Assembly (NCBI GenBank): GCA_021325215.1
Contig: JAJPHO010000002.1
Span: 1 to 38,947 of the forward strand
Length of the DNA: 38,947 bases
Source: Alphaproteobacteria bacterium
GTDB taxonomy: Bacteria > Pseudomonadota > Alphaproteobacteria > Rhodospirillales > Magnetospirillaceae
Direction of reading: 5' to 3'
The translations under genes were made by a program, and so were the position numbers. How positions within the stretch are numbered: the first letter of the stretch is position 1; each line of letters starts with the position of its first letter. Below are positions 20,103-21,241 of the stretch, one piece after another. Under the pieces are notes generated by a model. It saw only the letters and a program-made list of their open reading frames with translations. It had not been told where the DNA came from and made no database searches.

Positions 20103-20114
20103 ATGGAGGAGCTC

Positions 20115-20444
20115 GTGACGGATCGCAAAGCGGCGGTGGCCGCTTACAAGGAACGGAAGAGTGTGTGCGGTATCTACGCCCTGCGTTGCGCGCCTTCGGG
20201 CGAAGTATGGGTGGGGTATGCGGCGGATATGGAGAAGATCCGCAACCGGCTGGATTTCACCCTGCGCAGCGGCGCGACGCCGCATCGTTCGCTGAAGGAG
20301 GCCGTGCAGGCGCATGGGGTGCAGGCCATCGCCTTTGAAGCGCTGGAAGAAAGGGAAGAGGAGGAGCCAGGCTTCGCCCGCGCGGCCTGGCGCAAGGCGC
20401 GGCTGGCGCATTGGCGGGCGGAACTGGGGGCGATGGTGATCTAG
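20115..20444 (+). CDS. Small GIY-YIG nuclease-family protein
   Basis: A 109-residue protein. After MTDRKAAVAAYKERKSV comes CGIYALRCAPSGEVWVGYA, the first strand pair of the GIY-YIG fold, with VWVG in the place of the YIG motif. The family enzymes cut DNA, but the small stand-alone members next to DUF2239 genes are uncharacterised, and the changed second motif raises doubt about activity. GTG 20115 is preferred because GGAGG lies five bases upstream and the product starts like relatives. ATG 20103 in frame would add four residues. The stop codon TAG is part of the CTAG end of the first palindromic element. Confidence 0.75.
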   Translation: MTDRKAAVAAYKERKSVCGIYALRCAPSGEVWVGYAADMEKIRNRLDFTLRSGATPHRSLKEAVQAHGVQAIAFEALEEREEEEPGFARAAWRKARLAHWRAELGAMVI

Positions 20445-20514
20445 TGTCCCGATCGCGAAGTTCGTGCGATCTGGATCACGGCCTTTCGAACTTCGCGATC
20501 GATCAGGACACTAG
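20441..20514. repeat. CTAG-bounded palindromic element 1
   Basis: A 74-bp element that starts CTAGTGTCC and ends GGACACTAG. Outer arms pair over 9 bp. After a short asymmetric bulge in the right arm, inner arms pair over 14 bp (GATCGCGAAGTTCG, 20451-20464, with 20487-20500). The middle is 22 bases. Its left CTAG supplies the stop of the GIY-YIG gene. Confidence 0.85.
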
Positions 20515-20527
20515 CTTTAACAATCAT

Positions 20528-20605
20528 CTAGTGTGGCTTGAAGATTCTTAAATTCCTAAAATCGCTGATATCGAAGTCGTAGGAATTTAAGAATCGCCAC
20601 ACTAG
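20528..20605. repeat. CTAG-bounded palindromic element 2
   Basis: A 78-bp element that starts CTAGTGTGGC and ends GCCACACTAG. Outer arms pair over 10 bp, then a 5-base bulge (TTGAA) in the left arm, then a 16-bp perfect inner stem (GATTCTTAAATTCCTA, 20543-20558, with 20580-20595). The architecture matches element 1, 13 bp away, but the inner stem sequence is different. Its right CTAG supplies the stop of the convergent VOC gene. Confidence 0.85.
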
Positions 20606-21066
20606 GGCGCGGGGCGCTTCGGCTGCCAGAGCTCGACCTTGTTGCCTTCGGGATCGGCGATCCAGGCAAAGCGTCCGTTCGGGTCGGCGTCGTTGCGCTC
20701 CAGCGGCTCGACGCCTTTCTCATGCAGCTTGGCGAGCAGCGCGTCCATGTCGTCGACCGCGTAATTGATCATGAAGTCGCTGGCCGACGGCGCGAAATAT
20801 TTCGTCGTGGCGGGGAAAGCGCTCCAGGTCAGCTTCGGCGGATGGTTCGGCGCGTCGTAGCGCAGCATCGCGCCGCCCCAGGCTTCCAGCGGCATGCCCA
20901 GCACGTTGCGGTACCAGGCGGCCAGCGCCTTCGGGTCTTTGGCTTTGAAGAAGATGCCGCCGATCCCGGTGACATGTCCGGGCGCCTCGGCGGGCGGCGA
21001 TTCGCCCCGGCTGGCCGGACCGGCAAGAATGAGGGCTCCAACGCACAACACCGTGATCGACCGCAT
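20602..21066 (-). CDS. VOC (glyoxalase/bleomycin-resistance-like) protein with signal peptide
   Basis: A 154-residue protein. Residues 1-24 form a signal peptide (MRSITVLCVGALILAGPASR). The rest is one vicinal-oxygen-chelate domain with paired beta-alpha-beta-beta-beta units: GIGGIFFKAKDPKALAAWYR, the Gly-rich turn, INYAVDDMDALLAKLHEKGV and a C-terminal WIADPEGNKVELWQP. The DPEGNKVELW ending is diagnostic of the fold. The reaction is unknown; a secreted VOC protein is less usual than a cytoplasmic one. ATG 21066 is chosen because of the GGGGAGAA ribosome site and the signal peptide. An open frame to 21198 would read through the tRNA gene and is rejected. Confidence 0.85.
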   Translation of the reverse strand: MRSITVLCVGALILAGPASRGESPPAEAPGHVTGIGGIFFKAKDPKALAAWYRNVLGMPLEAWGGAMLRYDAPNHPPKLTWSAFPATTKYFAPSASDFMINYAVDDMDALLAKLHEKGVEPLERNDADPNGRFAWIADPEGNKVELWQPKRPAP

Positions 21067-21114
21067 CGCAGTTCTCCCCGCTGATGCGTCGATTGTAGGC
21101 ATGGGCGCGGGCAA

Positions 21115-21141
21115 GAAAAAAGGGCCCCCGAGGGAGCCCTT
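21115..21141 (-). terminator. Terminator of tRNA-Ser
   Basis: Reading the minus strand, AAGGGC...GCCCTT arms (21141-21136 with 21125-21120), extended by CCC/GGG pairs with one mismatch, are followed by a TTTTTT run at 21121-21116. It lies just after the tRNA 3' end. Confidence 0.8.
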
Positions 21142-21151
21142 CATTTCTGAC

Positions 21152-21241
21152 TGGCGGAGAGGGTGAGATTCGAACTCACGGTACCCTCGCGGGTACAACG
21201 GTTTTCGAGACCGTCACAATCGACCACTCTGTCACCTCTCC
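21152..21241 (-). tRNA. tRNA-Ser (anticodon CGA)
   Basis: A 90-base class II tRNA on the minus strand, with acceptor GGAGAGG paired to CCTCTCC, discriminator G and an encoded CCA (21154-21152). The anticodon stem is ACGGT/ACCGT with loop CTCGAAA, giving anticodon CGA at 21205-21207, which reads UCG codons. A long variable arm (TGTACCCGCGAGGGTACC) marks it as serine, and the T loop is GTTCGAATC. Confidence 0.97.

Follow-up and report, generated by a model that had tools for sequence, protein, structure and literature searches.

The 165-bp unit at positions 20441-20605 of the window (the whole 38,947-nucleotide stretch of DNA that was analysed) is, with a probability of about 0.83, a MITE with hairpin ends, whose outer arms are the ends for an IS630-family transposase and which was inserted at the TA within a CTAG. 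It is a composite repeat with CTAG on both sides, related units have inserted at CTAG, its ends are common to an IS630 element resident in the same genome, and its stems covary. Judging from these likenesses in sequence, the unit is probably moved by the IS630-family element of the host genome. Elements of this kind are already known, the accessible text of PMC2229807 describing RUP together with IS630-Spn1, and it is the two-hairpin design with inward bulges and its spread in the Alphaproteobacteria that are new as far as the searched literature goes.

In the mechanism that we propose, the two bulge-free outer arms would serve an IS630-family (DDE) transposase as terminal inverted repeats, and this enzyme would insert the unit at the TA in CTAG, thus leaving CTAG on both sides. 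Each end has, across a short loop, a second copy of its terminal repeat in inverted orientation, and the 2-6 extra bases of the bulge would mark this inner copy as not being a transposon end; the bulge is presumably what separates the inner arms from the outer arms. The target duplication may well be TA, in which case the element proper would span 20444-20602 (Table 1).

Table 1. Features of the twin-hairpin unit and its two neighbouring genes (positions in the window).
Feature	Position	Strand	Description
Neighbouring gene	20103..20444	+	stop is the TAG of the left CTAG; 4 of 6 plasmid relatives annotated as GIY-YIG nuclease family
Whole unit (hairpin A, spacer, hairpin B)	20441..20605	+	165 bp including the CTAG at either side
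Hairpin A	20441..20514	+	outer stem 9 bp, inner stem 15 bp, loop 22 nt
Outer arm of hairpin A	20441..20464	+	bulge-free, left terminal inverted repeat, CTAGTGTCCCGATCGCGAAGTTCG
TA in left CTAG	20442..20443		proposed left copy of the target duplication
Loop of hairpin A	20465..20486	+	22 nt
Inner arm of hairpin A	20487..20514	+	with ATCA bulge
Bulge of hairpin A	20502..20505		4 nt, ATCA, right arm
Spacer	20515..20527	+	13 nt, CTTTAACAATCAT
Hairpin B	20528..20605	+	outer stem 10 bp, inner stem 16 bp, loop 21 nt
Inner arm of hairpin B	20528..20558	+	with TTGAA bulge
Bulge of hairpin B	20538..20542		5 nt, TTGAA, left arm
Loop of hairpin B	20559..20579	+	21 nt
Outer arm of hairpin B	20580..20605	+	bulge-free, right terminal inverted repeat
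TA in right CTAG	20603..20604		proposed right copy of the target duplication
Convergent gene, VOC/glyoxalase family	20602..21198	-	stop is the TAG of the right CTAG

Structure, copies and distribution of the unit

The first-pass annotation had placed two palindromes at 20441-20514 and 20528-20605, and these coordinates proved exact. As it had described, both start with CTAGTGT and end with ACACTAG, and their outer stems of 9-10 bp and their one-sided bulges of 4-5 bases on opposite arms were as measured here. Its inner stems of 14 and 16 bp were right for hairpin B, whereas that of hairpin A has 15 bp, and the GAT with which both were said to start is CGAT in A. Both inner stems (15 and 16 bp) are perfectly paired, and both bulges, being on the right arm of A and the left arm of B, point toward the spacer. 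The hairpin folding of the unit is not a product of chance: the folding energy of the 165 nt as single-stranded DNA is -48.5 kcal/mol, while 200 shuffles that preserve dinucleotides average -17.6 (sd 2.7), which gives a z of -11.4, and either strand folds stably. The unit is short and non-coding, with no open reading frame of at least 100 aa inside its 165 bp. Base composition alone predicts about 126 CTAGs in the window, some eleven times as many as the 11 found, and 4 of these 11 fall within the unit.

The host genome is a 4.88-Mb draft (195 contigs) whose stated completeness is 100. The search for CTAGTGT...ACACTAG palindromes that the earlier annotation had called for (run here with the pattern CTAGTGT-N50-80-ACACTAG) returned 16 matches per strand, i.e., 16 exact hairpins and hence more than the two in the window, while the reversed control pattern gave 0 matches in the same genome. 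A model of hairpin A gave 50 matches, which may include both strands or B hairpins. Seven complete or nearly complete A-spacer-B units were found in the host (the one in the window and those at L016, L017, L018, L021, L023 and L024). What had been taken for two separate palindromes are, in the copies seen, mostly the two ends of one element, although solo hairpins do exist. At three further host loci (L019, L020 and L022), the second hairpin, which lies about as far from A (CTAGTGTTCC) as in the units, has no CTAG end, and its outer stem is largely self-complementary and different in each copy.

Among 60 relatives, 5 match the pattern, and recognisable members are present in G026, G030 and G050 (solo hairpin); the matches in G003 and G020 were not counted, the architecture being absent there. 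The junction GGACACTAG-N12-14-CTAGTGTGG was found in at least 120 stretches of named genome contigs, and the 120 listed titles name what we take to be members of several alphaproteobacterial orders, or give no more than 'Proteobacteria'. In a sample spread evenly over the class (289 genomes, the host's own included), the exact junction occurs in 9 genomes. Judged by the spacer, five of them hold clear members (G000, G104, G156, G212 and G236), G252 is doubtful, and the matches in G163, G274 and G311 are due to chance or to other palindromes; G163 carries short palindromes, ACACTAGTGCCC...CACTAGTGT, which are probably another repeat. The distribution of the family in the Alphaproteobacteria is patchy, and its end was matched 459 times at up to 2 mismatches in G063. 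In 98 distinct units, the spacer is 13 nt long in 66, 12 nt in 17 and 14 nt in 15, within the range of 12-14 nt that the junction scan admitted. A blastn search of plasmids with the whole unit (E 1e-5) gave no match; with hairpin A alone (E <=10) it gave 23 weak records, among which the match on a Roseomonas gilardii plasmid (33 bases at 90.9%) may be a member of the family. Among viral contigs, 6 and 3 stretches carry the two search patterns.

Variants of the unit were also seen. G088 has solo hairpins that are hybrids of an A outer arm and a B arm, as well as B/B forms without a bulge, and at L099 a single hairpin has one CTAG in common with a unit. A unit at L028 lacks hairpin B precisely, with a single CTAG remaining, as after excision or slippage. 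Other CTAG-ended palindromes abut units or share their CTAG on the right flank (L221 and L223) or the left flank (L037); they read CTAGAGCGTTTC... and CTAGAGTGCTTC..., the first of which resembles the ends of the IS630 copies L285 and L302. There is also a sister family with the same twin-hairpin design, other stems and the ends CTAGTGGAG / CTAGTGGTCC (L063:3668-3840, L152, L158, L096 and L191). An autonomous copy, i.e., one with a gene between A and B, was not seen at six G088 loci with a lone end, of which four reach contig ends and the other two were judged by eye from ORFs of at least 110 aa.

Landing at CTAG and the flanking stop codons

Related whole units insert at CTAG. At L191, a 166-bp unit (both CTAGs counted) lies within a copy of the sister CTAG-ended repeat, and the copies of this repeat at L063, L096, L152 and L158 show just CTAG at the same place. 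At L045, a unit lies between the spacer and hairpin B of an older unit, and L171 is the corresponding locus without the insertion, with flanks 93% and 99% identical. Both comparisons of filled and empty sites fall within other CTAG-ended repeats. Two units at L103 have one CTAG in common. Together with the many copies and the CTAG ends, these sites support the earlier suggestion of a family of mobile palindromes with fixed ends.

The filled and empty sites leave CTAG flanking the unit on both sides, and because CTAG belongs to the target, duplications of TA and of CTAG look alike there. The CTAG target duplication for which the earlier annotation had proposed to look is right in its form, and a 2-bp TA duplication inside CTAG fits equally. 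Of 141 junction hits, in a reading that presupposed TAG at the left and TA at the right, the base 5' of the left TAG could be read in 129 (C in 123, T in 5 and G in 1) and the base 3' of the right TA in 111 (G in 108, A in 2 and T in 1). These outer flanking bases fit YTAR, and they are what is expected either from TA insertion with a preference for CTAG or from CTAG duplication. The TA duplication agrees better than the CTAG duplication with the multi-copy IS630 element of G087, which has TA at both sides in the 4 copies compared. One copy of this element (L306:1038-2091) lies within the CCACACTAG end of a family unit, and each of two matching pieces of it has 8 places in G087.

The outer CTAGs had been read as the TAG stops of two convergent genes, which is true for both 20103-20444 and 20602-21198. 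A Pfam search with the product of the former gave no match, and the alignments of all 6 of its relatives extend to residue 113 of 113; for the latter, those of the 12 listed among 68 relatives extend to residues 192-197 of 198. Since these alignments run to or near the last residues, the insertion appears to have left both gene ends intact. Across the family, 87 of the 191 unit sides examined are reached by an open frame of 100 codons or more; some of these frames are bound to be spurious, the DNA being GC-rich. The stop is the TAG of CTAG in 47 of the 87, with 18 and 22 in the other two frames (binomial p 5.7e-5). As landing in CTAG regenerates TAG on both sides, a TAG stop preceded by C would stay intact, and this seems to have happened in the window. 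Landing at CTAG is thus a way in which an element could enter stop codons and leave both genes unchanged.

Ends shared with IS630 elements, and other candidate movers

The single DDE_3 match in the host genome at E <= 0.001 is an IS630-family element of 1184 bp, which codes for a 373-aa transposase and both of whose ends read CTAGTGTCCTGAT inward. The stop codon of this transposase is the TAG of the right terminal CTAG. Beyond CTAGTGT, i.e., over positions 8-30, the outer arm of hairpin A agrees with each host IS630 end at 18 of 23 positions, a value that none of 20000 shuffles reached, and the outer arm of hairpin B at 14 of 23, a value reached by 12 and 4 of 20000. Similar agreement is found elsewhere: the unit arms of G068 match the ends of its own IS630 at 12-16 of 23 positions, and the arms of sister CTAGTGG-ended palindromes match those of the IS630 elements at L258 and L259, in other genomes, at 13-16 of 23 (the left and right labels of these ends may be swapped, which does not affect the identities). 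Eight crossed arm/IS pairs reached only 6-11 of 23, the two highest, both from B, scoring 10 and 11 with 1108 and 398 of 20000 shuffles as high.

IS870 has a stop codon derived from CTAG, and IS630 elements prefer CTAG. We examined 23 IS630 loci, 21 of which had a homology hit; in 7 of these 21 (L041, L256, L259, L260, L271, L272 and L280) both ends were found and the transposase stop lies in the terminal CTAG, L258 not being counted owing to a premature stop. At four more loci (L262, L274, L275 and L277), the stop lies in CTAG and no matching left end was found.

Several points weigh against an IS630 mover. The match of B to the host IS630 is weaker than that of A, solo hairpins occur, Y1 genes adjoin units in G076 and G085, and the filled/empty comparisons are both from inside other CTAG-ended repeats. 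Of the 32 distinct element-bearing genomes searched (G089, which is the same MAG as G026, was counted once), 20 gave an IS630-family transposase at the thresholds used, three of them (G066, G069 and G075) only below the curated cut-off. None was found in the other 12, including G063 with its many end matches. Most of these genomes are draft MAGs, where repeats can be lost, and MITEs can outlive their mover; with no such gene found in 12 of 32 genomes, co-occurrence adds little. The copies in G088 are nearly identical, and the IS630 genes found there have no CTAGTGT ends in the stretches examined.

Two other classes of transposase were considered as movers. One reading, which we regard as improbable, makes the unit a REP/BIME-type element whose hairpins are a REP and an inverted REP tagged by the tetranucleotide CTAG; a Y1 (HUH) tyrosine transposase like those of the IS200/RAYT group would then move it in single-stranded form. 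The two inverted bulged hairpins, the conserved tetranucleotide, the covarying stems and the fixed bulge are indeed BIME-like, and according to the accessible part of PMC8266576 a CTAG variant of a GTAG-tagged REP is still cut, with reduced activity. The two strongest Y1_Tnp loci, L172 in G076 and L173 in G085, also each hold a twin-hairpin unit (L172:1185-1370 and L173:1187-1370, of the CTAGTGCC-type subfamily), with the B end about 130-170 bp from a 153-aa Y1 gene; these are 2 of the 12 Y1 loci fetched. Either an IS200-like element has landed there twice or a Y1 enzyme has a role in the family, and the CTA end of the unit may be no more than the place where the Y1 neighbour happened to land. 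On the other hand, a resident Y1 (TnpAREP) transposase, which a REP/BIME system would have besides its two inverted bulged hairpins, was not found in the host (0 Y1_Tnp matches in the 195-contig draft, completeness given as 100), and only 10 of 30 element-bearing genomes have any Y1 match, 8 of them over the cut-off. CTAG moreover flanks the hairpins on both sides, and the ends match IS630 elements. The B ends of the L172 and L173 units run into TAAATATCCCCCGGC and TAAGTATCCCCCGGC, respectively, possibly the end of an IS200-like element.

IS481 elements have CTAG targets and TGT ends, which makes the IS481 family, along with IS5, another conceivable source of a transposase for the unit, if an extremely improbable one. 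The IS481 model matched in all 17 of 17 genomes; a gene bracketed by CTAGTG and CACTAG was seen at just one of the 30 loci fetched, L251, which was rejected as an IS481 element, being the host IS630 element L041, which the IS481 model also matches weakly. No IS5/IS481 element with CTAGTGT-plus-stem ends was seen among these 30 loci; the IS630 ends match past the target. In favour of an IS5-family mover, a stretch at L017:1366-1469, which resembles the C-terminus of an IS5-family transposase when its translation is read by eye, follows directly after the CTAG of a unit and runs to the contig end; units may well serve as landing sites for other CTAG-seeking elements. Targets of the CTAG/YTAA and YTAR types are also given, in the accessible text of PMC3189936 and PMC2266754, for a P. 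syringae MITE that may derive from IS5 and for IS711.

Paired changes in the stems, and related repeats

For the covariation analysis, 62 units (62 A and 62 B hairpins) were aligned. Identical units, 45 junction hits without both ends intact and 5 of 98 units beyond 158-170 bp were left out before pairs were counted, and of the 82 distinct A and 91 distinct B hairpins, 20 and 29, mostly extra copies from genomes already in the alignment, were removed by hand with no measured criterion. Paired bases occupy 98.3% (A) and 98.4% (B) of the cells. Two-sided changes were found in 81 cells over 11 of 24 pairs in A (15 cells in column shuffles) and in 232 cells over 14 of 26 pairs in B (73 cells in column shuffles), neither count being reached by any of 500 shuffles, compared with one-sided changes in only 7 and 12 cells. 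The total of 313 two-sided changed cells in 124 hairpins counts cells and not independent events, and kinship among the sequences inflates such counts; the number of pair types in B is unexceptional (67 of 500 shuffles as high). Structures slid by 1-3 columns collapse to 17-42% of cells paired. The test for paired substitutions that the first-pass annotation had proposed is thus strongly positive, the inner stems varying between species while their pairing stays. G-T cells make up 6 of 930 inner-stem cells in A and 11 of 990 in B, less than in column shuffles (3.4% and 7.5%). Extra bases are present in every inner arm (2-4 in 62 of 62 A hairpins and 2-6 in 62 of 62 B hairpins) and in no outer arm.

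The paired changes and the few G-T cells point to a constraint on the DNA palindrome rather than on RNA alone. That annotation had suggested selection on the fold, as RNA or as extruded DNA. Its RNA form, in which the hairpins, transcribed from either side, would serve the convergent genes as stabilisers, processing sites or terminators at their 3' ends, agrees with the place of the unit between these genes, with the stable folding of both strands and with the covarying stems, and is nevertheless very improbable. Two-sided changes far outnumber one-sided ones and G-T pairs fall below the shuffles, whereas RNA stems tolerate G-U. A search for a terminator-like site found none, and the 3 Rfam matches to window positions 20300-20800 at E up to 1 all stay below the gathering score, the best of them being to a microRNA model at a sub-threshold E of 0.087. 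The extruded or single-stranded DNA form of the suggestion is possible.

At the level of DNA, paired changes may also arise without any selection on pairing, through palindrome correction by template switching during replication, a reading that we hold to be quite possible, if somewhat short of an even chance. It is compatible with the IS630 MITE reading, and the element would in all other respects be an ordinary MITE of that family. Correction is expected to leave near-perfect stems and few G-T intermediates, and the hybrid and bulge-less solo hairpins of G088 show arm exchange. Correction alone should, however, erase the extra bases that all 62 A and all 62 B inner arms keep, and within a unit the stems of A and B remain different. 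More doubtful, in our view, is that the ends of this DDE-type IS630 family are recognised or protected as DNA hairpins and kept by selection, with a cruciform or single-stranded intermediate in the transposition cycle. Under such recognition, the inner-arm bulge and the self-complementarity would be kept and the stem sequence would drift along with the transposase; the cruciform or single-stranded intermediate could form, for example, at the replication fork. The DDE class to which the IS630 enzymes belong is thought to act at double-stranded ends, and a double-strand transposase offers no reason for self-complementary ends, a further point against an IS630 mover. Whether self-complementary ends reflect recognition of hairpins or correction of palindromes is a testable question, and the family provides a natural alignment of palindromes conserved at the DNA level in which the role of hairpins in a DDE transposon can be tested.

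With a MITE moved by an IS630-family transposase as the preferred reading, the closest described system is RUP of Streptococcus pneumoniae (about 107 bp), for which the accessible text of PMC2229807 proposes IS630-Spn1 as the mover. Like the unit, RUP is non-autonomous, has terminal repeats that match a resident IS630-family element and has TA as the target, whereas the unit has two hairpins, a spacer, inward bulges and a CTAG site, and belongs to the Alphaproteobacteria. The CIR elements of Caulobacter, Brucella and other Alphaproteobacteria (Chen and Shapiro 2003, as described in PMC2229807) are likewise intergenic, with two palindromic arms and a linker, an arrangement that the unit has too. 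As described there, they differ in being about 110 bp long with GANTC at the terminal loop, which sets the unit apart from them, and that review leaves the mechanism of their mobility open. BIMEs and REP doublets with TnpAREP, in the accessible text of PMC8266576, resemble the unit in their two inverted bulged hairpins and tetranucleotide tag; the unit differs in its CTAG on both sides, its IS630-matching ends and a host in which no Y1 was found. Other alphaproteobacterial palindromic repeats, some of them dimers with conserved spacers, are Br-REP1 and Br-REP2 of Bradyrhizobium (PMC5082802) and the GTAG/CGTC REP dimers (PMC3733652); the consensus sequences printed in PMC5082802 are unlike the unit, and CTAG is absent from the main text of both papers. 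In our literature search, whose coverage left out most subscription journals, including the original descriptions of RIME, Bru-RS and CIR, no description of or name for the unit was found. This class of alphaproteobacterial palindromes hereby gains an architecture, an insertion target and a likely mover, which may bear on other two-armed repeats such as CIR. Among autonomous elements, the IS630 family, to which ISRm2011-2 also belongs (PMC5894124, accessible text), shares with the unit's proposed mover the DDE transposase and, as found for the loci here, a stop codon made by the terminal CTAG; its members differ from the unit in being autonomous, about 1.1-1.2 kb long and without twin hairpins.
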